Assembly: GCF_000312505.2 (NCBI RefSeq)
Contig: NZ_HG326226.1
Span: 1-64,000 of the forward strand
Origin: Fenollaria massiliensis
Lineage (GTDB): Bacteria; Bacillota; Clostridia; Tissierellales; Peptoniphilaceae
Length of the DNA stretch: 64,000 nucleotides
Reading direction: 5' to 3'
The translations under genes were made by a program, and so were the position numbers. Positions 746 to 59,914 of the stretch are shown piece by piece (position 1 is the first letter of the stretch; the number at the start of each line of letters is the position of its first letter). The notes under the pieces were generated by a model. The model was not told where the DNA came from. It saw only the letters and a list, made by a program, of their open reading frames with translations, and did not search any database.

Positions 746-822
746 TGGTCGGGGTGAGAAGGTTCGAACTCCCGGCCCCATGGTCCCAAACCACGTGCGC
801 TACCAAACTGCGCTACACCCCG
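746..822 (-). tRNA. tRNA-Pro (anticodon UGG)
   Basis: A 77-nt cloverleaf is readable on the minus strand. The 7-bp acceptor stem is CGGGGTG with CACCCCG, the T-loop carries GTTCGAA, and the anticodon loop reads TTTGGGA with anticodon TGG. The 3' CCA is encoded in the DNA. UGG reads all CCN proline codons by wobble. It is followed by the terminator at 715-739. Family identity rests on the visible fold and anticodon; no scan was run. Confidence 0.95.
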
Positions 823-11368: not shown

Positions 11369-12163
11369 ATGAAAGACTTATTAAAATTTTGTTCATTGAG
11401 CTCAGGAAGCTGTGGCAATGCGACCTACATCGAATATAAAGACAGCAAAATCTTGATAGATGCAGGGCTCAATGGCGTGACAACAGAAAACGCACTCAAA
11501 GAGATAGGTACAGACATCAAAGACCTAGATGCAGTTATTTTAACACACGAGCACAGAGACCACGTTCAAGGTGCAGGAATACTCTCAAGAAAGTATGGAG
11601 CTAAGCTATATGCCAACGAAAAAACCTATCTTGCATCACTACCACGCATTGGTTCAGTGAAAGAGAGTCACGTAAACATTTTTGATGGCGCATTTGAAGT
11701 GAAAGATCTTGTGATAAAGCCATTTAAAGTGTTTCATGATGCCTACGACCCAGTTGGCCTTGCCATATACGCAGGAAATAAAAAGGTCAGCATATTGACA
11801 GATACAGGCCTTGTTGATGATGGTATTAAAGAAGCAATCAAAGACTCAGACATTTATTACATCGAGAGCAATCACGACGAGCAAATGCTTGAGAACGGAC
11901 CATATAGCTACTACTTAAAGAGAAGAGTTAAAAGTTCAGAAGGACATCTGTCCAATGTTCAGGCAGCAGACCTGATTAAAAAGTCACTCAAAGACAAAAA
12001 CGAATTAGTTTTTCTAGCACATCTATCGCACGAGAACAACACAGAAAAACTTGCTTACATGACAGTTTATAAAGAATTGCTTCAGTCGGGAAGAAAGGCA
12101 GACGACTTTAGGCTAAGAGTAACACACAGATTAAAAAGAACACTTTTATACGAGATGGATTAA
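11369..12163 (+). CDS. walJ: MBL-fold hydrolase WalJ (YycJ)
   Basis: 264 residues of the metallo-beta-lactamase fold. It shows CSLSSGSCGN near the N-terminus, the metal motif THEHRDH (about residues 58-64), further His residues and DTG. YycJ proteins are thought to be nucleases linked to the coordination of cell division or DNA repair with the wall signal. It has no signal peptide. Its stop codon overlaps the rlmH start (TAATG). Confidence 0.93.
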   Translation: MKDLLKFCSLSSGSCGNATYIEYKDSKILIDAGLNGVTTENALKEIGTDIKDLDAVILTHEHRDHVQGAGILSRKYGAKLYANEKTYLASLPRIGSVKESHVNIFDGAFEVKDLVIKPFKVFHDAYDPVGLAIYAGNKKVSILTDTGLVDDGIKEAIKDSDIYYIESNHDEQMLENGPYSYYLKRRVKSSEGHLSNVQAADLIKKSLKDKNELVFLAHLSHENNTEKLAYMTVYKELLQSGRKADDFRLRVTHRLKRTLLYEMD

Positions 12164-12645
12164 TGCTAAAGATAGATCTCATAGTACTTGGGAAAATTAA
12201 GGAAAAATATTTAAACGAAGCCATAGACGAGTACAAAAAAAGAATTTCGCGCTTTGCCACTCTTAATATTATAGAACTCAAAGATAGAGACAAACCCGAT
12301 AAACTCTCAGACGCCGAGCTTGAAAAGATAGTGGATGAAGAATCAGAAGAAATACTTGCGAAAATAGATGAGACAAGCTTCGTCATCACTTTGGAAATAG
12401 CGGGGAAACTCTTAACAAGCGAAGAATTTGCAGAAAAAGTTAAAGAGATAGCAGTCAGCGGCTACTCCAAGATCACCTTGATTATAGGCGGGTCAAACGG
12501 CTTTAATAAAAAAGTTTCGAATAAAGCAGATTTAAAGCTAAGCTTCGGACGAATGACCATGAATCATAAACTCATGAGAGTGGTTTTGATGGAGCAAATA
12601 TTTCGCTGCTTCAAGATTATCAATAATGAAGCATATCATAAGTAG
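12163..12645 (+). CDS. rlmH: 23S rRNA (pseudouridine1915-N3)-methyltransferase RlmH
   Basis: 160 residues, the usual family length. The SPOUT-class SAM-binding knot shows LIIGGSNGF, and the C-terminus FGRMTMNHKLMRVVLMEQ...NEAYHK is diagnostic. It methylates a pseudouridine in helix 69 of 23S rRNA in assembled ribosomes. It is the last gene of the wal operon, and an M1 element follows the stop by 17 bases. Confidence 0.97.
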   Translation: MLKIDLIVLGKIKEKYLNEAIDEYKKRISRFATLNIIELKDRDKPDKLSDAELEKIVDEESEEILAKIDETSFVITLEIAGKLLTSEEFAEKVKEIAVSGYSKITLIIGGSNGFNKKVSNKADLKLSFGRMTMNHKLMRVVLMEQIFRCFKIINNEAYHK

Positions 12646-12662
12646 ATTATAAATAATTCTTA

Positions 12663-12862
12663 TCAAAATCGCGACTGGGACTTGTTCCTTCCTTAGCAAT
12701 GCTCACGTACCATTAGTACGCTGCGCTTGCTTCGTCAGTCCACTTCGTCCCATTCATCGATTTTGACTACAGAATTTGTTTGTTCTGGTTCATTTGAACG
12801 AGGCTATTTAATCATCTCAATGCGAAGCATCAAGGTTTCGGGACATATAGTCCTAAGTTCTT
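12663..12862 (+). repeat. M1 dispersed hairpin element, copy 3 (3' UTR of rlmH)
   Basis: Terminal arms TCAAAATCG (12663-12671) and CGATTTTGA (12758-12766) pair perfectly over 9 bp. The core reads CAATGCTCACGTAC, a short loop, then GTACGCTGCGCTTGCTTCG and CCACTTCGTCCC. The tail has a degenerate GGTTTC...GTTCTTC hairpin. It has the orientation of rlmH and lies between the stop codon and the hairpin at 12951. Confidence 0.8.
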
Positions 12863-13984: not shown

Positions 13985-14330
13985 ATCAAATTATTACTCT
14001 TGTCAATGAACCACAGCAAATAAATTTCTTAGATAAAATGTGATGATTATGCGAAATGGAGCTTCGAGGCAAGCTTGGCCGTAAGTTTAATCAAAGCTAT
14101 GTTCGCTTCGCTCCATACCTTTGTAAACTCTGGCATAAGGCATGCATTGCCAATCGAACTTCGCTAACGCTCGTTCTCTTGGTGCATGGACTTAACTGTA
14201 CATACAAGTACTCGAGCATTGCCGAGAAGCGAATGAGCATAAGGGCGCATTTTAGAAGAACCTGACCCATCATCAAAACTTCGTTTTGGATGGGTCCCCA
14301 GAACCTTGGTACTTCGTACGAGCAAGAAAT
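13985..14330 (-). repeat. M1 dispersed element, copy 4 (composite, minus strand)
   Basis: Arms TAAAATG (14034-14040) and CATTTTA (14248-14254) bracket a core whose apex holds about 110 extra bases. The inner stem (CTTCTCGGCAA with TTGCCTCGAAG on the minus strand) pairs at 9 of 11 positions. Beyond the core, 14265-14330 carries two further hairpins (GACCCATC...GATGGGTC and GGTAC...GTACG) that recur in copy 6. The end near 13985-14010 has the family boundary TTGTCAATGA. Unlike the others, it has no gene directly upstream on its own strand. Short open frames in this stretch are not genes. Confidence 0.7.
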
Positions 14331-16572: not shown

Positions 16573-17398
16573 ATTTGTCTTCTACCTAGGCTACCCCTTC
16601 GTGCGCTACGCACTTGTGTGCGCCTCACTCATAGCGCTTGCATCAGCATTTTTAGGCGTGATACTCGTTTTGAAACGCTACTCATACATCGCAAATTCAT
16701 TATCAAACGTAGCATTCGCGTCCCTATCAATCGCGACAGCCATCGGCTTTACACAAAAATTAGTATTAGCACTACCACTAACAATATTTTTTGCGCTAAT
16801 ACTTTTACAAGGAAATAATTCGAAGAAAATCATCTCAGACGCAGCCATCGCCATGGTTTCAGTATCAGCGCTAGCTATGGGCTACTTTGTTATGAACGTA
16901 TTTAGAGTCGGACCAAACGTCTCAGTTGACGTGTGCACAACACTTTTTGGCTCGACATCCATACTTACATTAACAAAGCTAGACGTCATCATATCCGTGG
17001 CACTATCGATACTCGTGATACTTTTCTTCATTTATTATTATAAAGAAATTTACATCACAGTCTTCGACGAAGACCTTGCAAACGCTTCAGGCATCAAGGT
17101 TGAAAGACTTAACACAGTTTTGTCCATGGTCGTCGCAGTCGTGATAACACTTGCAATTAGGCTAGTGGGCTCACTTTTAGTCGCAGCACTAATCGTTTTC
17201 CCAGCAGTCTCAGCGATGAAAGTTTTTCATTCATTTAGAAAGATTGCCTTCGCCTCAGCCATAATCTCGCTAGTATCAGCACTTGGAGGCGCGATATTTG
17301 CAATACTTGCGGCAACACCAGTTGGTTCTACCATCGTCGTGATGAATCTCGTAATATTTTTAATCATGTCAATAATTGGAGGTATGAAACGTGGATAA
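16556..17398 (+). CDS. znuB: Zinc ABC transporter permease (ZnuB type)
   Basis: 280 residues with about eight hydrophobic segments of the ABC-3 family; SLSNVAFASLS and VGSLLVAALIVFPA are typical. It forms the membrane channel for Zn2+. It overlaps the ATPase gene upstream and the next gene downstream by 8 bases, so all are translated as one unit. Confidence 0.92.
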   Translation: MELINKFVFYLGYPFVRYALVCASLIALASAFLGVILVLKRYSYIANSLSNVAFASLSIATAIGFTQKLVLALPLTIFFALILLQGNNSKKIISDAAIAMVSVSALAMGYFVMNVFRVGPNVSVDVCTTLFGSTSILTLTKLDVIISVALSILVILFFIYYYKEIYITVFDEDLANASGIKVERLNTVLSMVVAVVITLAIRLVGSLLVAALIVFPAVSAMKVFHSFRKIAFASAIISLVSALGGAIFAILAATPVGSTIVVMNLVIFLIMSIIGGMKRG

Positions 17399-18065
17399 AA
17401 CAAGAAAGAGAATTTTGGCCATAGTCGGCATATTGATTTTGGTTTTGATACTTGCATTTTTCACAAATAAAAAAGTTATATACCGTTATATGCCTAACAG
17501 CGCCGTGAATGAGACAGTTAAAAAGATGAAAGAAAGTTCAAAAGCTAAAAATGCTGATAATGCTGATGCCAATATTGAAAATATTGATGCAGACGAAAAT
17601 ATTGACCCAGAAGAAAATGCTAATTCAGATGAAAATATTGATACAAATGAAAATTCTGATGAAAATATTAACCCAGATACAAATGATAGTGCAGATGAAA
17701 GCGAAATCACAAACGAAAGCGGCCAATACTATGATTTAACAGGCAATGATCTAGACATGAACTACGTCATCGTCGCCATGATAGCTGAAGATCCAAAAAG
17801 CTTCGAAGGAGTCAAGATCAAGCTACAAGGCGTCGCCGTAGATCTAGAGACCACAGACACATCCGGCATGGACCACTACATCGTCATCAACGACCGCCAA
17901 GCCTGTTGTCAACAAGGCCTTCAATATATATTAAAAGATAAAACTCAAAAATATCCAAAACCACAAGAAATCATCACAGTAGAGGGAGAACTAACTGTTT
18001 TTAATAGTGAGGAGATTCCGTTTCCGTTAGCTGTGATTAAGAACGCACGCCTTATTTCGAATTAG
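17391..18065 (+). CDS. Membrane-anchored protein with a CC motif, zinc operon
   Basis: 224 residues from a GTG start that overlaps znuB. One N-terminal membrane helix (about 8-25) is followed by a low-complexity Asp/Glu/Asn-rich linker (about 50-115) and a compact domain of about 100 residues. That domain holds QACCQQGLQY (C172, C173) and beta-rich segments (KIKLQGVAV, EIITVEGELTV) suggesting an OB-like fold. Similar proteins occur beside metal ABC genes in Firmicutes, but I cannot name the family. A zinc-handling role is inferred from the operon. Confidence 0.75.
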   Translation: MDKTRKRILAIVGILILVLILAFFTNKKVIYRYMPNSAVNETVKKMKESSKAKNADNADANIENIDADENIDPEENANSDENIDTNENSDENINPDTNDSADESEITNESGQYYDLTGNDLDMNYVIVAMIAEDPKSFEGVKIKLQGVAVDLETTDTSGMDHYIVINDRQACCQQGLQYILKDKTQKYPKPQEIITVEGELTVFNSEEIPFPLAVIKNARLISN

Positions 18066-18230
18066 AGTCGCGCCTGGAACTCGTTACGAATAAGCCGCCT
18101 CCTCTACGTACCCCGTACGTACGACTGCGTCGGGGCTTATTCTAGACTTCGTCCCATCCATCGACTCTATCTTCGAACTAAGCTCGAGCAAAGATATAGA
18201 CGTGGTTCTTCTTTGCCCTGCAAAATTAGA
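18063..18230 (+). repeat. M1 dispersed hairpin element, copy 5 (3' UTR of the zinc operon)
   Basis: Terminal arms TAGAGTCG (18063-18070) and CGACTCTA (18162-18169) pair perfectly and the first includes the stop codon of the gene before it. The inner stem GAATAAGCC (18088-18096) / GGCTTATTC (18134-18142) is perfect, and the apex TACGTAC-CCC-GTACGTA is a 7-bp stem. It is followed by the hairpin at 18380. The rest of 18231-18379 is AT-rich without a gene. Confidence 0.85.
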
Positions 18231-25269: not shown

Positions 25270-25525
25270 ATTAATTATCCTTGTCAATGAGTCATCACCA
25301 AACAAATTGAAGAACCTCGTCCTTATGGCCGAGAACCTTTACGCTACGCCGGAAAAGAAGAACCTCACCCATCATCAAAGCATAGCTTTGGATGGGTCCC
25401 CTAGAACCTTGGTGCTTCGCACTCGTGATGATTTAGCGTTGTACAGAATTTTTTGGAGTGAGTCGTATGAATATACGTCGCAGCGACAAAAAATTCGAAA
25501 CTAGCTAAAGGGCACGTTTTAACAA
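25270..25525 (-). repeat. M1 dispersed element, copy 6 (3' UTR of pdxS)
   Basis: Minus-strand element beginning seven bases after the pdxS stop. Its inner stem GAATTTTTTG (25446-25455) / CAAAAAATTC (25487-25496) is a perfect 10 bp. Additional hairpins match those of copy 4 with paired changes: CAAAGC-ATA-GCTTTG here, CAAAAC-TTC-GTTTTG there. The tail hairpin CTCGTCC / GGCCGAG (25316-25333) and the boundary CTTGTCAATGA near 25280 follow. A 65-codon open frame here is not a gene. Confidence 0.75.
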
Positions 25526-25531
25526 GAAATT

Positions 25532-26389
25532 TTATCTGTCAGCCATGTGAACAGCAAGTTCATCTTCATTAATCCCAAACATAGCCTTACCTAATCCAGT
25601 CGCTGCCTCAGCTATAATCTTATTATCTTCATAATTTTTCACTGCCTTAACTATTGCCTTAGCTCTTCTCTCTGGGTCTTCGCTCTTAAATATACCGCTT
25701 CCAACGAAGACACCTTCAGCACCAAGTCTTCTCATTAGTGCTGCGTCTTGAGGTGTTGCGACACCGCCAGCTGAGAAGTTAAGTACAGGTAGTCTTTTGT
25801 TGTCGTGAACGTATTTTACTATATCGTAGCTAACTCTATATTCTTTTGCAAAAGTATATAGCTCGTCTTCTCTTTTTGAAACAAGTAGCGAGATACCGCC
25901 AAGTATTTGTCTTAAGTGGCTTACAGCTTGTACAACGTCGCCTGTACCTGCTTCACCCTTGCTTCTAATCATCGATGCACCTTCTTCGATCCTTCTAAGT
26001 GCTTCGCCAAGATCTCTTGCACCGCAAACAAATGGCACGTCGAATTGGTATTTGTCTATGTGATTGTCGTTATCAGCCTTTGACAAAACTTCTGATTCAT
26101 CGACGTAGTCAATGCCAAGCGCTTCCAAAACCCCTGCTTCAACAAAGTGACCGATTCTGCACTTCGCCATAACAGGGATTTTAACAGCTTTTTTTATCTC
26201 CAAAATCATTTTAGGGTCGCTCATTCTAGCAACGCCGCCTTCGCGTCTGATGTCTGCAGGTACCCTCTCAAGTGCCATGACAGCGCATGCTCCAGCACTT
26301 TCGGCAATCTTCGCTTCCTCAGGATTAGTAACGTCCATGATGACGCCGCCCTTAAGTGTATTTGTAAAGTCTAAAAATTTTTTATTCAT
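25532..26389 (-). CDS. pdxS: Pyridoxal 5'-phosphate synthase subunit PdxS
   Basis: 285 residues. PdxS makes PLP from ribose 5-phosphate, glyceraldehyde 3-phosphate and ammonia. Visible motifs are [13 protein letters not shown], the imine-forming Lys in [14 protein letters not shown] (K76), [11 protein letters not shown], and [13 protein letters not shown]. The glutaminase partner PdxT, usually encoded next to it, is absent here. The divergent gene pdxR is its likely activator. Confidence 0.97.
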
Positions 26390-28899: not shown

Positions 28900-29048
28900 A
28901 GCAATTTTACCCTTGTTAATGAATCATCGCCAAACAAATTTTTTGTAGCAAGCGTGATGATTGGGCGAAGTGGACCGACGAGGCAAGCGGAGCGTATATG
29001 CAATACGTGAGCATTGCCGAGGAAGGAACGAGCCCAAGGGCGCGCTTG
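28900..29048 (-). repeat. M1 dispersed hairpin element, copy 7 (3' UTR of lrgB)
   Basis: Arms CAAGCG (28949-28954) and CGCTTG (29043-29048); inner GGCAA / TTGCC and apical CGTAT / ATACG pairs are visible. It starts ten bases after the lrgB stop, on the same strand. Its tail ends with CCTTGTTAATGA near 28912 (plus-strand reading), the family boundary. Confidence 0.75.
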
Positions 29049-29057
29049 AACAAAAAA

Positions 29058-29723
29058 TCATACAAAGAAAGGAAGGATTATTACACTTAGTATCCCGCTA
29101 ATCACTAAACTCATCGAGCTCGCCGCCCCAGTCAATTCATTCATATTATTTGCCTTCGCTGTGCCTATCGCGTGCGATGCGCTTCCCAAGGCAACTCCCT
29201 TAGCAACGTCTGATTTAATTTTCATAATTTTAAAAACAGCATCACTCACCATGGCTCCGAATATGCCTGTAAATATTATCGTAAATACTGTAATTGAAAC
29301 GATGCCGCCCATCGATCTAGAAACGTCTATGCCTATCGCTGTGGTGATGGACTTTGGCAAAAGCGTTGCAAAATGCACTTTCTCAAGCACAAATATCTTA
29401 TAAATTGCAAAAACTGTCAAAACTGAAGAGAATACGCCGAAGACTATGCTCATAAGTATTGGAACTATGTCTTTTTTTATGGTTTTTAGCTCTTCATACA
29501 AGGGAAAGGCTAGGGCAATGGTTGCCGGTGTTAGTAATAGCGAAACATATTTTGCGCCCGATGCATAAGTTTTGCTGTCAATTTTAAAACTCAAAAGCAC
29601 AGCCATATCGACTGCTATTGCAAATAGAAGTGGATTGATAAAAGACCACTTAAGCTTCTTTTTTATGTAAACAAAGAAAAAATATGGCACTACTGTTAGT
29701 AACAGCATGAAAATGGCTGTCAT
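29058..29723 (-). CDS. lrgB: LrgB family membrane protein
   Basis: 222 residues from the ATG whose first base overlaps the lrgA stop (TGATG). It has several membrane helices and the conserved SVTTAIGID-like segment (here PKSITTAIGIDVSRSMGG) and GSASHAIGTAKA. LrgA/LrgB proteins influence murein hydrolase activity, lysis and export of small metabolites such as pyruvate. No LytTR or LysR regulator gene is adjacent. Confidence 0.92.
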   Translation of the reverse strand: MTAIFMLLLTVVPYFFFVYIKKKLKWSFINPLLFAIAVDMAVLLSFKIDSKTYASGAKYVSLLLTPATIALAFPLYEELKTIKKDIVPILMSIVFGVFSSVLTVFAIYKIFVLEKVHFATLLPKSITTAIGIDVSRSMGGIVSITVFTIIFTGIFGAMVSDAVFKIMKIKSDVAKGVALGSASHAIGTAKANNMNELTGAASSMSLVISGILSVIILPFFV

Positions 29724-30076
29724 CACTTCACCTTCCTTATCTTTAATAGCGTTTCGCAAAATTTTCCTGTCGTTGCCATAACGAAAATTGTTGAGAAAAC
29801 GATTGCGACTAGAACTGGGACTATGATGACTTTAAGGTCTATGAAGCTGTCAATAAGTGCAACTGCGCTCGGTATGAAAGTTAGCGGCATTATTTTAATC
29901 AAAAATTTACAAACGCCTTCAACTTTTTCTTTTTTAACGAGACCCATTTGTAGAAGCAAAAAAAGTATTATTATACCGTAAATGCTTGCTGGCATCGAGA
30001 CTGGCAAGGTTTTTGAGAGATAGTCGCTCACAAGTGTCACCGCCGCCACGATTATTATTCCAAATATTGTATTCAA
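29723..30076 (-). CDS. lrgA: LrgA/CidA family holin-like protein
   Basis: About 118 residues from a TTG at 30076, placed eight bases after AGGAG; the open frame continues upstream without a ribosome site. Four membrane segments and the motif SMPASIYGIIILFLLLQ match the LrgA/CidA family. A promoter TTTTCA-17-TATACT can be read upstream on the minus strand. It is co-transcribed with lrgB. Confidence 0.88.
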   Translation of the reverse strand: MNTIFGIIIVAAVTLVSDYLSKTLPVSMPASIYGIIILFLLLQMGLVKKEKVEGVCKFLIKIMPLTFIPSAVALIDSFIDLKVIIVPVLVAIVFSTIFVMATTGKFCETLLKIRKVK

Positions 30077-35697: not shown

Positions 35698-35708
35698 GTT
35701 TTTTCGCA

Positions 35709-36012
35709 TTTAAGTTGCGCCTGGAACTAATAGTGAGAAAATTGATTTTCACGAGCGCAGCATTCGGAGAAAACTGTTTTAATTTCTTTGCGAAGTGAGC
35801 CGCCCGTGAGACCATCTAGCTGAGCGAAGCGAACGAATATGGGCTCACAGGTGAACAAGCTTAGAAATTATCAGTTTTCGTAGACTAGCAAGCGAAGGAA
35901 AACAATTTTCGATGTGCAATGCTCGAGTACATTTGTACACCGCTTGCTTCGTCAGTCCACATCGTCCCATGCATCATAGCGCAAAGGTTCTCGGACGTTT
36001 ATGTCCGAGGTT
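35709..36012 (+). repeat. M1 dispersed element, copy 8, split by an M2 element
   Basis: The 5' part (TTGCGCCTGGAACT near 35714) and the rest (CAATGCTCGAGTAC...CGCTTGCTTCGTCAGTCC, from about 35916) belong to one M1 core, separated by the M2 element. The tail hairpin CTCGGAC (35990-35996) / GTCCGAG (36003-36009) is perfect. It has the orientation of the gene before it. No further gene or terminator is seen up to 36096. Confidence 0.75.
35732..35913 (+). repeat. M2 long-hairpin element, copy 1 (nested in M1)
   Basis: Nested stems: GAAAATTG (35737-35744) / CAATTTTC (35903-35910); GAAAACTG (35769-35776) / CAGTTTTC (35872-35879); AATTTCT (35781-35787) / AGAAATT (35863-35869); GTGAGACCAT (35806-35815) / ATGGGCTCAC (35839-35848, one mismatch). 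The boundaries ATAGTGAGAAAA and TTTTCGATGTGCAA are shared with copy 2 at 41906, whose stems pair with different bases. Confidence 0.8.
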
Positions 36013-39121: not shown

Positions 39122-40541
39122 ATACGATGTTAATTCTGAAAAAGCAGATGAATTTATTAATCACGAGGAGATTCTTGCCTCGCTTGAGTACGGTAGGGCG
39201 AATAAGCACAACAGAGAGCTGATTAAGGCTGCGATTGATAAGGCGAAGGAAGTTAAGGGACTTTCGCACAGAGAAGCATTTCTTTTGTTGTCGTCTGAAG
39301 AAGAGGATTTAAACGAAGAAGTTTACAAGCTTGCAAACGATATCAAGCGTAAATTTTATGGCAATAGAATAGTTTTATTCGCGCCGCTATATTTATCAAA
39401 CTACTGTGTCAATGGCTGTGTTTATTGTCCATATCACTTAAAGAACAAAACTATTCGCAGAAGAAAATTAACTCAAGAAGAGATAAAAAATGAGGTAATC
39501 GCTCTTCAAGACATGGGACACAAGAGACTTGCGCTTGAAACAGGCGAAGACCCAGTCAATAACCCGATTGAGTACATACTTGAGTCTATCAAAACCATTT
39601 ACTCCGTTCATCACAAAGCTGGTGACATAAGAAGGGTCAATGTTAATATAGCTGCGACAACCATTGAAAATTACAAGAAATTAAAGGATGTCGGTATAGG
39701 AACATATATTTTGTTTCAAGAGACATATCATAGAAAAAATTACGAAGCACTTCATCCAACAGGACCAAAGCATGACTACGCTTATCACACAGAGGCCATG
39801 GACAGAGCACAATTAGGCGGCATAGACGATGTTGGCTGCGGCGTTTTATTTGGACTAAATAATTACGAATACGATTTCGTGGGTCTTTTGATGCATGCAG
39901 AGCACCTTGAAGCGCGCTTTGGCGTTGGACCGCACACAATTAGCGTGCCAAGAATCAGACCAGCAGACGACATAGACCCAGAAACTTTTGAAAATGCAAT
40001 TTCTGACGATATATTTAAAAAGATAGTAGCCTGCATCAGAGTTTCTGTGCCATACACAGGCATGATTATCTCAACAAGAGAGTCAGTAGAGACTAGAGCA
40101 AGGATAATCGACTTTGGTATAAGCCAAATTAGTGGCGGCTCAAAAACATCAGTAGGCGGCTACGCGCACGAGGAAGAAGAGTCCTCAGCCGATACAGAGC
40201 AGTTCTTTACATCAGACCAAAGAACACTTGATGAGGTAGTTTCATGGCTGATGGATACAAACCACATACCATCATTCTGCACAGCTTGTTACAGAGCGGG
40301 CAGGACAGGCGATAGATTCATGAGCCTTGTTAAAGCAGGACAAATCGGCAACATCTGTCAACCGAACGCACTTATGACACTTAAAGAATATTTAATGGAT
40401 TATGCATCGCCAGAAACAAGAAAAAAGGGCGAAGCACTTATCGAAAGAGAAATAAATAACATTGGCAAGGAAAAAGTTAAAGAGATAGTTAGAGACAATC
40501 TTAAAAAGATTGAAAATGGCGAGAGAGACTTCAGACTATGA
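39114..40541 (+). CDS. hydG: [FeFe] hydrogenase maturase HydG (tyrosine lyase)
   Basis: 475 residues from the ATG at 39114 (the frame extends a few codons upstream inside hydE). The radical SAM cluster is CVNGCVYCPYH; the C-terminal second cluster is CTACYRAGRTG...GNICQPN. HydG splits tyrosine to give CO and cyanide for the H-cluster iron. Both clusters are complete. Its stop overlaps the hydF start (ATGA). Confidence 0.95.
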   Translation: MYKYDVNSEKADEFINHEEILASLEYGRANKHNRELIKAAIDKAKEVKGLSHREAFLLLSSEEEDLNEEVYKLANDIKRKFYGNRIVLFAPLYLSNYCVNGCVYCPYHLKNKTIRRRKLTQEEIKNEVIALQDMGHKRLALETGEDPVNNPIEYILESIKTIYSVHHKAGDIRRVNVNIAATTIENYKKLKDVGIGTYILFQETYHRKNYEALHPTGPKHDYAYHTEAMDRAQLGGIDDVGCGVLFGLNNYEYDFVGLLMHAEHLEARFGVGPHTISVPRIRPADDIDPETFENAISDDIFKKIVACIRVSVPYTGMIISTRESVETRARIIDFGISQISGGSKTSVGGYAHEEEESSADTEQFFTSDQRTLDEVVSWLMDTNHIPSFCTACYRAGRTGDRFMSLVKAGQIGNICQPNALMTLKEYLMDYASPETRKKGEALIEREINNIGKEKVKEIVRDNLKKIENGERDFRL

Positions 40542-41656
40542 TGGCGCGTTCATTGCAAAAACACGTTGTCATCGCAGGCAGAGTAAACGCAGGCAAATCA
40601 ACGCTTTTTAACTCCATCATGGGCTCAGATGCTGCCATAGTCTCAGACAAACGAGGTACGACGACAGATGCAGTTCGTAAATCCATCGAAGTTCCGGGAC
40701 TTGGACCAGTCGTATTCATTGATACAGCTGGATTTGGCGACGACACAGCCCTTTCAGATGAGAGACTAAAAAAGACACGCGCCGAATTTTCTAAAGCCGA
40801 TGCCTTTATATATATAGGTGATAATGATGATGAAGCGATTTTATCAGAGCTAGAAAAATACAATAAGCCAGTCATCAAAGTTATTATGGCGATCGATAGA
40901 GACGTGAGCTATGATAATGGAGATGCAATTGTTTATAGAGATGACTCATCACGAGAAAAAATATTTTCAGCGCTTAAAAAAGTTTTAGATACAAAAGAAG
41001 AGTCCTTACTAGATGGTCTTGTTGATAGCAAAGCGACCATCATCATGGTTATGCCGCAAGATGCAGCAGCACCAAAGGGAAGACTGATAAAAGCGCAAGT
41101 TGAAGCCATAAGAGAAGCACTTGACAAGGGCATGACAAGCATAGTCGTGGGCGACGAGGACCTTGAGAGCGTGAGAGATAGATTTCACGGCGCAGACCTT
41201 GTGATCTGCGACTCAAGAGTTTTTAAAAAAGTTTATGACGTTTTTGGGGGAATAACAAAAGTCACTTCATTTTCGGTACTTTTTTCAAAAATGAAAGGCG
41301 ATATAGCTTATTTCATCGAGTCAGCGAAAAAATTCGATAATTTTAAGGGCAATGAAAAAATTCTGATAGCCGAGGCTTGTACACATCCACCCATTAACGA
41401 AGATATCGGAACCGTGAAAATTCCTGCCATGCTTAAGAAACGCTTCGGCGATGGACTTCAGTTTACATTTACAAGAGCCGACGACTTTGATGATATTGAA
41501 AAATATGACATGATTATTCATTGTGGTGCTTGTATGTTTAATAAAACACTTGTTTTTAATCGTGTTATGAAGGCGAAGGATAAAAATGTGCCGATGACTA
41601 ACTACGGGATTACTATTGCTTACTTAAATGGTATATTAGACAAAATTTCGCTGTAA
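40538..41656 (+). CDS. hydF: [FeFe] hydrogenase maturation GTPase HydF
   Basis: 372 residues: GTPase domain with GRVNAGKSTLFNS and DTAGFGDD, a dimer domain, and an Fe-S scaffold domain with EACTHPPINEDIG and HCGACMFNK. It carries the precursor cluster to HydA. HydE, HydG and HydF are all here but no hydA, so the hydrogenase is encoded elsewhere. An M1 element begins 12 bases after the stop. Confidence 0.94.
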   Translation: MMARSLQKHVVIAGRVNAGKSTLFNSIMGSDAAIVSDKRGTTTDAVRKSIEVPGLGPVVFIDTAGFGDDTALSDERLKKTRAEFSKADAFIYIGDNDDEAILSELEKYNKPVIKVIMAIDRDVSYDNGDAIVYRDDSSREKIFSALKKVLDTKEESLLDGLVDSKATIIMVMPQDAAAPKGRLIKAQVEAIREALDKGMTSIVVGDEDLESVRDRFHGADLVICDSRVFKKVYDVFGGITKVTSFSVLFSKMKGDIAYFIESAKKFDNFKGNEKILIAEACTHPPINEDIGTVKIPAMLKKRFGDGLQFTFTRADDFDDIEKYDMIIHCGACMFNKTLVFNRVMKAKDKNVPMTNYGITIAYLNGILDKISL

Positions 41657-41668
41657 TTCAAAATTCTT

Positions 41669-41840
41669 AAAAAAATTTCGCCTAAGGCTCGTTCGATTTT
41701 TGTCAATACTCGAGTACTTCGTGTACACTCCGTTTGACAAAAATCTCCACTTCGCCTTATCCATAAATTTTTTTTGAAGAATGGCTTTAGGTTTAAACTA
41801 AAGTTTAAACACTAAAACCTTAATTGACACGGGGTAAAAA
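41669..41840 (+). repeat. M1 dispersed hairpin element, copy 9 (3' UTR of hydF)
   Basis: Terminal arms AAAAAAATTT (41669-41678) / AAATTTTTTT (41765-41774). The inner stem GATTTTTGTCAA (41695-41706) / TTGACAAAAATC (41734-41745) is a perfect 12 bp. The tail ends with AATTGACACGGGGTAAAAA, the family 3' boundary. Confidence 0.85.
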
Positions 41841-42234: not shown

Positions 42235-42263
42235 TTGACTAAATTTAATCTCTGTAGTATAAT
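42235..42263 (+). promoter_or_regulatory. Promoter of the riboswitch-controlled ABC operon
   Basis: TTGACT (42235-42240), 17 bases, TATAAT (42258-42263). The start point would be near 42270, just before the riboswitch. Confidence 0.8.
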
Positions 42264-42271
42264 CATCTTAG

Positions 42272-42357
42272 ATAGAATATAACAAGGAAGTGGGTTAGAG
42301 TCCTACACAGTGCCGCTACGGTATTTGCACTACGCATAAGTCCGATACTTGTATTTG
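42272..42357 (+). ncRNA. Cobalamin riboswitch (short form)
   Basis: The segment reads AAGGAAGTGGGTTAGAGTCC, then TACACAGTGCCGCTACGGTA, then CATAAGTCCGATACTT. This follows the B12 riboswitch core pattern: GGAA, GGT-A-AGTCC, the (G)CCGC-AC-GT box and the closing AAGTC-GA-AC. The usual P1 partner and some peripheral helices are short or unclear. It sits between promoter and terminator in front of an uptake operon, the expected layout. Identification is by eye. Confidence 0.75.
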
Positions 42358-42358
42358 A

Positions 42359-42390
42359 GTTTTGCTCCGGTTCAGAGCAAGGCTAGTTTT
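42359..42390 (+). terminator. Riboswitch expression platform (terminator)
   Basis: Stem GTTTTGCTC (42359-42367) / GAGCAAGGC (42375-42383) with two G-T pairs, then TAG and T7. Ligand-bound RNA would be expected to let this form and stop the operon. Confidence 0.7.
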
Positions 42391-45669: not shown

Positions 45670-46421
45670 TTGAGCTAAGAAATTATTCAGTGAGCATAGC
45701 TGGCAAATCCATAATCAAAGATATAAACCTTTTAATTGATGATGGCAAGTCCATGAGCATTATTGGTGTTTCAGGAGCAGGTAAGAGCATGACCTTTAGG
45801 TCAGCGCTTGGCTTGGTCCGCAAGGCACAAATAGATGGCGAGATATATTACAAAGGTGAAAGAGTAAAAACTTTAAAAGATAAATTAAAAAATGAAATCG
45901 GCTATATCACGCAAGACGTACAAAACTCGCTAAATCCTTACATCAAAGTCATTGATCAGATGACGAGCGATTTAGTTTTTGCAAAAGGCATTCCTAAAGC
46001 GGAAGCAAAAGAGAAGGCAATTGAGTCCTTGGAAGCGATTGGAATCAGTAAAGACAAGGCAAAGAAGTACCCAGATGAGTTTTCAGGCGGCATGCAGCAA
46101 AGAGTTGTCATCGCCATGATATTAAACAGAGGGCCAGAGCTTTTGATTGCGGACGAAATTTCGAGCGCGCTTGACAGAGAATCGACTGATATGGCGATAA
46201 ATATGATTAAAAATCACATGGACAAAAACAAGATGAGCCTTATCTATATCACACATAACCCCTTTGACGGCATAGCGCTTACAGATAGGATTTGCGTTTT
46301 TAAAGACGGACGAATCATTGAGAATAGAGCGTCAGACGAGATTTTTGAAAGCGAAGAAGAGAATACGAAATTACTTTTAGATGCGGCAGGGAAAATATAT
46401 GGAAAAAATTTTAGAGATTAA
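45666..46421 (+). CDS. ABC transporter ATP-binding protein (DppD/NikD type)
   Basis: 251 residues: Walker A GVSGAGKSM, QDVQNSLNPYIKV, signature FSGGMQQR and Walker B LLIADEISSALD. It lacks the C-terminal Cys-rich oligopeptide-transporter tail of longer DppD proteins, as is common in nickel-type members. The next gene starts inside its end. Confidence 0.9.
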   Translation: MIELRNYSVSIAGKSIIKDINLLIDDGKSMSIIGVSGAGKSMTFRSALGLVRKAQIDGEIYYKGERVKTLKDKLKNEIGYITQDVQNSLNPYIKVIDQMTSDLVFAKGIPKAEAKEKAIESLEAIGISKDKAKKYPDEFSGGMQQRVVIAMILNRGPELLIADEISSALDRESTDMAINMIKNHMDKNKMSLIYITHNPFDGIALTDRICVFKDGRIIENRASDEIFESEEENTKLLLDAAGKIYGKNFRD

Positions 46422-47094
46422 AAATTTAAAAAAGACATTTAAAATGTCAGACGCACCGACCATTTCCGATTTAAATTTAGATTTATACGAGAATGAATTT
46501 TTAGGCATCATCGGTCCATCAGGTAGCGGCAAGACAACCCTTCTTAGGCTCATAGCTGGTCTCATAGTTCTTGACAAAGGTGAAATTCTCTACAAGGGAC
46601 GCGATTTGCCCATAGTTGGCGATAAAAGAAGGAACCTCGATGATTTTCCAGTACAGCTAATATTTCAAAACGCTGTCTCATCCTTCGATGCAAAAAAAAC
46701 TATCTTAGCTAGCTTTAAAGAGGCGCTTCACTTTTCGAAAAAAGATTTTAACGAAGAAGAGCTTGAAAAACTCATGGATGACTTCGAGCTAGATAGAAGC
46801 TCTTTACAAAAGCTTCCAAATGAATTATCAGGCGGCATGATTAGCCGTGCGCAAATAATTAGGGCACTACTAACACAGCCAAAGGTTTTACTAGCAGACG
46901 AGATTACATCGCCACTTGATGTTAATCTGAAGCTCAAGATTACAGAGCTACTTGATGCGTATAGAAAAACACATGGGATGAGCATTATATTGGTTAGTCA
47001 TGATGTGGAGCTGCTTGAACATGTATGCGACCGTGTGATTGATATCAATGACATAATGATTAGAGATATTAATTCTTATAAGATTTCGCGCTAA
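46399..47094 (+). CDS. ABC transporter ATP-binding protein (DppF/NikE type)
   Basis: About 231 residues from the ATG at 46399, inside the end of the previous gene. Walker A GPSGSGKTT, IFQNAVSSFDAKKT, signature LSGGMISRAQ and Walker B VLLADEITSPLD. The signature lacks the usual QR pair. It is the last gene of the riboswitch operon; its stop codon lies inside the first arm of an M1 element. Confidence 0.9.
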   Translation: MEKILEIKNLKKTFKMSDAPTISDLNLDLYENEFLGIIGPSGSGKTTLLRLIAGLIVLDKGEILYKGRDLPIVGDKRRNLDDFPVQLIFQNAVSSFDAKKTILASFKEALHFSKKDFNEEELEKLMDDFELDRSSLQKLPNELSGGMISRAQIIRALLTQPKVLLADEITSPLDVNLKLKITELLDAYRKTHGMSIILVSHDVELLEHVCDRVIDINDIMIRDINSYKISR

Positions 47095-47360
47095 AACGCG
47101 CCCTTGAACTTGTTCCTTCCTCAGCAATGCTCACGTACTTCGTGTACGCTCCGCTTGCTTCGTCAGTCCACTTCGTCCAATCATCGCGTTTTATCTGCGA
47201 AATTTGGTTTGGGCGATTTTGTGTAATCTTATAAAAACTGCTTCGCCTTATCCATCATAGCGCAAAGGTTCTCGTCCGTATGGACGAGGTTCTTCTTCTG
47301 CTTGAAGAATGACTTAAACTTAAAATTAAAATTTTAAGCTTAAGTCTTAATTGACACGGA
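47092..47360 (+). repeat. M1 dispersed hairpin element, copy 10 (best preserved)
   Basis: Terminal arms TAAAACGCG (47092-47100) / CGCGTTTTA (47185-47193), perfect, the first overlapping the stop codon. Flanking TTTCGC and GCGAAA extend the symmetry. The core reads AGCAATGCTCACGTAC, TTC, GTGTACGCTCCGCTTGCTTCG and CCACTTCGTCC. The tail hairpin CTCGTCC-GTAT-GGACGAG (47271-47288) is perfect, and the 3' end is AATTGACACGGAGTAAAAG. Confidence 0.88.
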
Positions 47361-59394: not shown

Positions 59395-59736
59395 CAAAAC
59401 GCTTCATGGGGAGAGTTTCCAGATGTAGAAGGCTGTCATGCACAAGGCGACACTATAGATGAAATTATTGAAGATGCTACTTTAGCTTTAGAGCTGCATT
59501 TATCTGAGATGCTTAAAGATGGTGAAAAACTTAATCCACCAAGCGATATAAAATCAATTAAAACTGATAAAAATTCTTTTGTGAGTATAATTAGAGCAGA
59601 TGTCAACCTTAACAAAGGCAATAAATCTGTTAGAAAAACGCTTACTATACCATCTTGGTTAAATGACAGAGCCGTAGAGATGAATATTAATTTTTCGAAG
59701 ACATTGCAGGAGGCACTAACTAGAAAAATAATTTAG
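59395..59736 (+). pseudogene. HicB antitoxin remnant (5' end missing)
   Basis: From just after a TGA at 59392 the frame reads SWGEFPDVEGCHAQGDTIDEIIEDATLALELHL, the HicB RNase-H-like core, then a basic region and a C-terminal DNA-binding segment (KTLTIPSWLNDRAVEMNINFSKTLQEALTRK). The first about 15-20 residues normally before EFPD are absent and there is no start codon before an internal ATG at 59509. No hicA toxin gene is adjacent. A shorter product from 59509 is possible but would lack the fold's core. Confidence 0.8.
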
Positions 59737-59745
59737 TTTCACGTT

Positions 59746-59845
59746 AAAGTCGCGCCTAAGGCTCGTTCGCTCTTCGGTAATGCTCAAGTATTGCATATAC
59801 ATTCCGCTTACCTCAGAGCTCCACATCGCCTTATCCATCGACTTT
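59746..59845 (+). repeat. M1 dispersed hairpin element, copy 11
   Basis: Terminal arms AAAGTCG (59746-59752) / CGACTTT (59839-59845). Inner stem GCTCTTCGGTAA (59769-59780) / TTACCTCAGAGC (59808-59819), 10 of 12 paired. It lies nine bases after the hicB-remnant stop, same strand, and is followed by the hairpin at 59915. Confidence 0.8.
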
Positions 59846-59914
59846 TCCAGTGAAATTAGTGAATAAATTAATTTTGCAAATGTATCAAATCGTTCAAAAA
59901 AATCTAAATTATCA

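Follow-up and report, generated by a model that had tools for sequence, protein, structure and literature searches.

The window analysed here, the first 64,000 nucleotides of a Fenollaria massiliensis contig (NZ_HG326226.1), carries repeated hairpin elements that often stand straight after the stop codons of genes. The elements are roughly 130 bases long (about 125–135 bp) and form a family in the genus Fenollaria that we call M1. The copy treated in the preliminary description occupies positions 47079–47206 of the plus strand. Its outer stem, P1, joins 47081–47090 to 47196–47205 in the single-sequence fold, and a second stem, P2, joins 47092–47100 (TAAAACGCG) to 47185–47193 (CGCGTTTTA), both in the fold and as exact complements. 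The TAA within the 5' arm of P2 is at the same time the stop codon of the ORF at 46381–47094. At 47126–47157 a pattern match identifies the apical motif (AATGCTC..GTAC..GTAC..CTCCGCTTG), which a genome scan also finds in Proteobacterial hairpins. The copy scores 132.3 bits with the covariance model R1, built from eight singly folded window copies, and 128.3 bits with R2, built from 111 matches, 103 of them distinct; its fold reaches −33.1 kcal/mol (z −3.1).

Seven other copies with R2 scores above 80 bits are spread along the window. On the plus strand lie a copy near the contig end (5–128, R2 112.5 bits); one that begins 5 nt past the ORF at 12163–12645, with a block edge at 12654 (12651–12778, 117.5 bits); one with a different apical module that provides the end of the ORF at 17391–18065 (18050–18182, 82.8 bits); one behind the ORF at 40538–41656, with a block edge at 41651 (41658–41785, 119.3 bits); and one that starts straight after a TAG (59732–59859, 127.1 bits). 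On the minus strand, a copy at 586–713 (124.7 bits) follows a terminator-like hairpin and T-run 3' of a tRNA gene (749–822, minus strand), and another at 28935–29062 (124.6 bits) overlaps the end of the minus-strand ORF at 29058–29759. Lower scores go to two further minus-strand copies: one at 25411–25534 (64.1 bits), also with a different apical module and with a synteny block edge at 25518, and one at 14021–14266 (77.5 bits), whose sequence shows another repeat inserted in its apex. Finally, a plus-strand fragment comprising the apex and 3' half (35916–35975, nhmmer E 3.9e-8) adjoins a different long-hairpin repeat. In the window, R1 recovers eight complete copies plus a weak one, and R2 recovers ten; together with the nhmmer fragment these give the eleven copies counted earlier.

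Among the genomes searched, M1 is confined to Fenollaria. R1 matches number 43, 19, and 40 in the three Fenollaria genomes G000, G001, and G002, and none occurs in 38 genomes of other genera. The genome of the window, G000 (1.71 Mb), thus holds 43 matches (41 under stricter filters), 34 of them on the window's own 411 kb contig (C3); the extrapolation to hundreds per genome in the preliminary description is wrong. At the gathering threshold, Rfam has no family for M1; its matches in the window are one tRNA and one cobalamin riboswitch. The riboswitch (42240–42370) scores just over gathering and precedes a gene for an ABC-transporter substrate-binding protein.

Three other repeats keep company with M1. 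M2 (GCGCAAAGGTTCT-hairpin-AGGTTCTTC) lies at 47258–47295 on the plus strand, joined to an apparent 3' remnant of M1, and occurs again at about 14250–14320 (minus) and at the loci L079, L086, and L032; by eye, its hairpin arms vary between copies and pair inside each, and it recurs in or next to the P1/P2 region of M1. M3 is a further long palindrome, marked by GTTAAGTCCATGCA; it occupies about 14075–14200 (minus), inside an M1 apex, and is found in G002 at about 442.4 kb. M4, another long hairpin with CTGAGCGAAGCGAAC, lies at about 35700–35915, beside the M1 fragment, and in G002 at about 442.5 kb.

The architecture of M1 is that of a rod read from the outside in. P1 (6–10 bp) is followed by a loop of 2/3 nt, P2 (7–9 bp), a loop (GCGC / ATCCA), and P3 (6 bp). 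Inside P3, loops surround a 2-bp helix (GT/AC), followed by P5 and an apex, which is either CAATGCTC..GTAC..GTAC..CTCCGCTTG or one of several other apical modules. Copies L013 and L069 share an identical P1–P3 and carry different apices, so apical modules seem to be exchanged. Copy-specific complementarity extends 3–4 bp beyond P1 and then drops to background (87 copies); the end of the element is therefore sharp, even though the sequence at that end is variable.

The stems had been reported to differ in sequence between copies while remaining complementary within each. All six of the outer-arm pairs cited for this (14/107, 12663/12758, 18063/18162, 41669/41765, 47092/47185, and 59746/59839) are exact reverse complements, and the three inner stems are present as well (GAATAAGCC/GGCTTATTC at 18088/18134, GATTTTTGTCAA/TTGACAAAAATC at 41695/41734, and GAATTTTTTG/CAAAAAATTC at 25446/25487). 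The accompanying statement that loop-side sequences stay constant holds for some copies, where the strings are exact (AATGCTCACGTAC in 4 places, GTACGCTCCGCTTG in 2, CCACTTCG in 4), but not for those with a different apical module. Folded singly, each of eight window copies beats its dinucleotide shuffles (z −3.1 to −6.4; at most 1 in 200 shuffles folds as stably). RNAalifold on these eight yields 36 pairs, 23 of which show at least one double change that keeps the pair.

The wider alignment, which is fitted to the model's own structure and so favours pairing figures, bears this out: across 103 distinct copies, 88.1% of cells are paired and double changes occur in 35 of the 36 structure pairs. 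Shuffles give 67.5% pairing, and none of 500 reaches the observed value. Sliding one arm by 1–3 columns lowers pairing from 88.1% to 32–44%. We also applied a tree-based null, using our own code in the style of R-scape rather than R-scape itself, to 93 distinct rows of 105–150 letters drawn from 111 alignment rows (128 columns, 100 simulations). Significantly covarying pairs were found: 15 of 7750 column pairs reach E < 0.05, 13 of them among the 36 structure pairs, while the remaining two (22/232 and 23/230) sit beside P2. These results support the conclusion that pairing, and not the letters, is maintained, by selection or by another structure-keeping process.

Covariation of this kind has another potential source. 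Long palindromes are prone to arm-to-arm correction, and M1 could be ordinary MITE debris whose stems covary through template switching between the arms (quasi-palindrome correction) and not through selection. Such correction would erase the loops, yet the loop columns of M1 stay unpaired and recognisable across different stems; we accordingly reject it as the sole source of the covariation. Nor does M1 have the fixed terminal repeats of a MITE, as its ends vary from copy to copy. Y1 transposase genes, which are present in these genomes (see below), speak for this explanation; overall we regard the debris explanation as very improbable.

Where the neighbour of M1 is known (98 copies, 5 being unknown), the upstream ORF lies on the strand of the element in 76. 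In 59 of 103 copies, an open frame of 90 codons or longer terminates within M1 or no more than 60 nt ahead of it. Within these 59, the stop begins at model positions −1 to 4 in 35 copies, just outside P1 (which starts at 7), and at position 14, inside the element, in 6. The site at 59732 illustrates the arrangement: by eye, the window frame and its G002 counterpart share their final codon, after which the window has M1 ahead of a terminator-like hairpin, and G002 has a terminator-like hairpin at once, as expected of an empty site. Since M1 stands between stop codon and terminator at the sites read, it is probably transcribed, and a role in the mRNA is possible.

One rival explanation is that M1 is a 3' untranslated RNA structure, selected at mRNA ends for exonuclease protection, as an RNase III site, or as an aid to termination, with recombination spreading and exchanging the copies. 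Both the shared strand of the upstream gene and the location between stop and terminator at filled and empty sites speak for such a role. The identity of the imperfect pairs provides a way to discriminate. A structure formed by one RNA strand should accept G·U and not A·C, whereas a DNA hairpin should treat both alike. In M1, G·U and U·G together number 109, and A·C and C·A 117; the 47 best rows give 32:51. Misaligned columns inflate both counts. By comparison, tRNA stems give 25 G·U to 2 A·C in a control of 348 cells from 30 tRNAs of Fenollaria and named loci (arithmetically 29, as one fails the stem filter). A ratio near one favours a DNA hairpin, and the data lean towards M1 being a DNA hairpin over a one-strand folded RNA. 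The preliminary description had offered selection on either a folded RNA or a DNA hairpin; the part of that reading that stands is a process, selective or otherwise structure-keeping, that acts on pairing and not on letters, and between its two carriers the evidence inclines to DNA.

Two gammaproteobacterial families of hairpins with the same apex, the only two aligned for this comparison, give different pictures. Twenty-seven Lysobacterales relatives show 79 G·U against 22 A·C, which would fit selection on RNA in those relatives and counts in favour of the RNA explanation; five Pseudomonas copies show 11 against 9, in a family too uniform to inform. Weighing these observations with the absence of any G·U excess in M1, and with the turnover at gene ends described next, we consider a selected 3' RNA structure unlikely for M1, though it is the least unlikely of the rival explanations.

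Orthologous sites differ in whether they hold M1. Comparison of contig C3 of G000 with the fetched parts of G002 gives 43 collinear gaps no longer than 4 kb, of which 17 hold an element and 26 do not; 6 of the 17 are filled in both species, 7 in G000 only, and 4 in G002 only. At the 12651 site, G002 lacks the element and has a terminator-like hairpin behind the same stop. By eye, three gene ends (18050, 47079, and the tRNA at 586) are filled in both species with different variants. That orthologous gene ends are often without an element, or carry a different variant, stands against a selected role in the mRNA. Turnover is not fast everywhere: for six G000 elements inside blocks aligned to G002, the other species has an element in or close to the corresponding position, and one of these six is already included in the gaps filled in both. 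Near 665.2 kb in G002, one M1 is, by eye, nested within the apex of another. No fixed target duplication was seen in seven site alignments, in which the flanks of the compared species are too diverged to read one.

M1 is also enriched where the chromosome has been rearranged. An element is present at ten of 18 short breaks, compared with 22 of 136 other intergenic regions; eight breaks have none, and some breaks may stem from paralogous matches or from unfetched parts of G002. The 18 are drawn from 23 breaks, after exclusion of 5 with gaps of at least 3 kb (3 of which hold an element).

No transposase could be linked to M1. Y1_Tnp matches number 12 across the three Fenollaria genomes, several of them with equal scores within one genome, and no RAYT was identified among them. 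Three equal-scoring Y1 transposase matches in G000 (C3:112515, C3:399810, and C4:158772) have 159-aa frames and are probably IS200-like copies. An IS200 enzyme is a possible mobiliser of M1; the Y1 matches look like multi-copy IS200, and two G000 places are on contigs C1 and C4, both of which are without R1 matches. A reverse transcriptase as mobiliser, which would make M1 a reverse-transcribed element of SINE-like, group II intron, or retron descent, was rejected, RVT_1 being found in just one of the three genomes.

The distribution of M1 along the chromosome is heavily skewed towards the origin. G002 is a single contig in which GC skew changes sign at about 510–520 kb, where dnaA lies, and at about 1260–1270 kb. 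Within a quarter chromosome of dnaA lie 37 of its 40 R1 matches; three lie outside. R2, run over 1.2 Mb of this genome, finds 39 copies in the stretch around dnaA (380–780 kb) and 0 in the terminus stretch (1130–1530 kb), two 400-kb stretches picked after the hits were known; twenty 20-kb samples elsewhere yield 8 copies. A binomial on the 39:0 contrast treats the copies as independent. Intergenic DNA is similar in the two stretches (58.8 and 56.4 kb). The other repeats follow suit, with origin to terminus pattern matches of 16:0 for M2, 4:0 for M3, and 2:0 for M4, the last two having few copies. Of the 19 matches in G001, 14 fall on C7 (0.68 Mb), the contig with dnaA, and 5 on C8 (1.05 Mb). 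In G000, beside the 34 on C3, 4 matches lie on the dnaA contig C6, in an assembly where contig order relative to dnaA is not established.

Such a bias could itself be the function, if M1 copies were DNA sites that serve the origin-proximal chromosome, as supercoil-absorbing cruciforms or as binding sites for gyrase, HU, or proteins of the SMC type. The contrast of 39 to 0 in equal lengths of G002, the matching skew of M2, M3, and M4, and the concentration on C7 in G001 all agree with this proposal. However, M1 nests in M1 and is absent at individual orthologous sites, and GC3 in G002 declines, with scatter, between the oriC region (about 0.45) and the terminus region (about 0.25), so that a general gradient of composition or recombination may explain the bias. 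We judge a chromosomal service role improbable.

The apex of M1 extends well beyond Fenollaria. A scan of the named genome collection for the apical pattern returned at least 104 stretches; among the 80 listed, 5 are from Fenollaria, and the rest from Pseudomonas, Providencia, Lysobacterales, Microbulbifer, other Proteobacteria, Desulfobacterales, Arcobacter, and two entries named only "bacterium". In 291 sampled genomes of the window's class, the motif occurs only in the two that belong to Fenollaria and the reversed pattern in none; viral contigs give 0 matches to the apical pattern. Among the at least 99 non-Fenollaria matches, 92 folded with the motif enclosed by pairs, and 7 were dropped for short flanks or for lack of enclosing pairs. 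A same-strand stop lies within −80 to +40 in 44 of the 92, a weak measure given that free folds run into the flanks. By eye, the outer arms of these relatives vary between copies yet pair within each, and the 27 Lysobacterales copies show double changes in 17 of 41 pairs. R1 scores the relatives weakly (42 bits at best), which indicates that the part they have in common with M1 is mainly the apex. At the gathering threshold, Rfam gave no family for M1 in 18 loci of relatives. In Providencia (L105, L113, L153) and Arsenophonus (L145), the motif lies in 16S–23S rRNA spacers. In the three Providencia loci, StyR-44 matches adjoin the motif and do not cover it.

Enterobacteria provide relatives in familiar gene neighbourhoods. 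In Klebsiella aerogenes and Salmonella (L304 and L306, about 1447–1580), dnaN and recF are separated by a hairpin that has the M1 apex and starts just past the dnaN stop, while in E. coli K-12 dnaN and recF overlap with no hairpin between them, as in an empty site. The Klebsiella record LR134132.1 is titled plasmid 12 but is probably chromosomal, given that it contains dnaA-dnaN-recF-gyrB. Weak BLAST matches (80–90% identity over part of a 49-base query), one per genome, occur in 330 of 5426 E. coli genomes. Three such matches were opened; two lie between pyrH and frr and one elsewhere. By eye, the pyrH-frr hairpin is also present in K-12.

These relatives bear on an existing annotation. A relative in a Yersinia phage (L305, 1513–1579) aligns, over its apex and 3' side, with the consensus of the Rfam family RF02228 (sX9) at 39.1 bits, below the family's gathering cut-off of 44; one in E. 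coli aligns weakly, at 29.3 bits. The sX9 model differs from M1 in having 76 positions and another structure, and it does not match M1 itself at the gathering threshold. In the part consulted of a survey of small RNAs, sX9, a Xanthomonas sRNA, is placed among the top 20 most prevalent (PMC9029176). That a listed sRNA aligns with the apex of a relative lends something to the RNA explanation; the sX9 model itself looks like a fragment of one of these long mobile hairpins related to M1.

Dispersed palindromes come in several described forms. REP sequences and REPINs are dispersed hairpins kept in trans by a Y1 enzyme (RAYT), and they have conserved ends with a GTAG tag; M1 has the reverse arrangement of variable ends and a conserved apex. 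A close parallel is YPAL/RU-2, described in the parts consulted of two reports as a long palindrome without TA ends that has many intergenic copies, occupied as well as empty sites, targets lying across or next to dyad symmetries, and reported co-translation with upstream genes (Delihas 2007, PMC2229807; PMC2759123). Target duplications in YPAL/RU-2 are given as variable, 3–26 bp (PMC2229807), and copy numbers of YPAL, about 168 bp in Yersinia, are found in Cozzuto 2008 (PMC2267715), as far as these sources were consulted. M1 is likewise a single long imperfect palindrome with many intergenic copies and with filled and empty orthologous sites, the latter including dnaN-recF for its relatives in Enterobacteriaceae. 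Unlike M1, the RU-2 sequence in the consulted part of PMC2759123 is, by eye, without the AATGCTC..CGCTTG apex, and neither covarying stems around constant loops nor a bias towards the origin comes up in the portions consulted of the YPAL accounts.

Two other elements invite comparison. BOX of Streptococcus pneumoniae is a modular stem-loop, 36 copies of which provide the stop codon of the upstream gene, according to the part consulted of Croucher 2011 (PMC3049150); going by its description, BOX is set apart from M1 by being built of boxA, boxB, and boxC modules, whereas M1 is one rod with exchangeable helices and apex. BoxC, or the intrastrand triplex motif, is an intergenic repeat of enterobacteria that, in the consulted part of Holder 2015 (PMC4666352), clusters near the origin in E. 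coli K-12 and not in other strains or bacteria, and is associated with more rearranged loci. The same source describes a G/C-rich triplex of 37 nt that precedes ORFs more often than it follows them. Its stems are conserved and its loops less so; in M1 this is reversed.

The claim that no described family has this form is not supported: long palindromes inserted near the ends of genes are a known kind (YPAL/RU-2, BOX), the same apex is present in many Proteobacteria, and sX9 is apparently a fragment of a relative. Small palindromic mobile elements at gene ends are known; a description of the M1 variant was not found in the literature searched, six apical strings were not found in print there, and none of the titles listed on Fenollaria repeats or genomes concerns such repeats. 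What seems new is the design, defined by loops and free in its stems, together with an apex common across phyla and the origin bias.

We favour, with a probability of roughly 60%, the reading that the M1 copies are mobile elements, small and non-autonomous, in a family of the YPAL/BOX kind. The element can be pictured as a rod in which internal loops divide six to seven short helices. Recognisable sequence resides in the loops and in the apical CGTAC/GTACG hairpin, and the helices would need only to pair. Landing at the 3' ends of genes, often at or near the stop codon and ahead of the native terminator, M1 would do little harm. The form that is copied or recognised may be a DNA hairpin, extruded or single-stranded, moved by an enzyme that presumably acts in trans. 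Recombination between copies could help to reshuffle the origin half of the chromosome and to swap apical modules, and the Proteobacterial hairpins with the same apex may belong to the same class of element, carried between phyla.

A bolder version of this mobile-element reading is more tentative, and we offer it as possible only. M1 and its relatives would form a hairpin class that crosses phyla, set by internal loops and apex with helices free to change; it would travel as a folded DNA strand aimed behind stop codons. The Fenollaria families would be nearly barred from the terminus half by their mode of copying, coupled to replication or recombination near oriC, and sX9 would be a fragment of the class.

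Small palindromic repeats are usually seen as drifting debris or as RNA structures. M1 preserves its pairing as the letters change and gives no indication of G·U tolerance, which suggests that the maintained entity is a folded DNA strand. The contrast between origin and terminus, along with the coincidence with rearrangement breaks, makes spread by replication-coupled copying a testable idea. Annotations of sX9 as an sRNA may need to be re-read. Finally, since Pseudomonas, Providencia, and Salmonella carry this apex as well, and E. coli K-12 a near relative, the question can be taken to laboratory strains.
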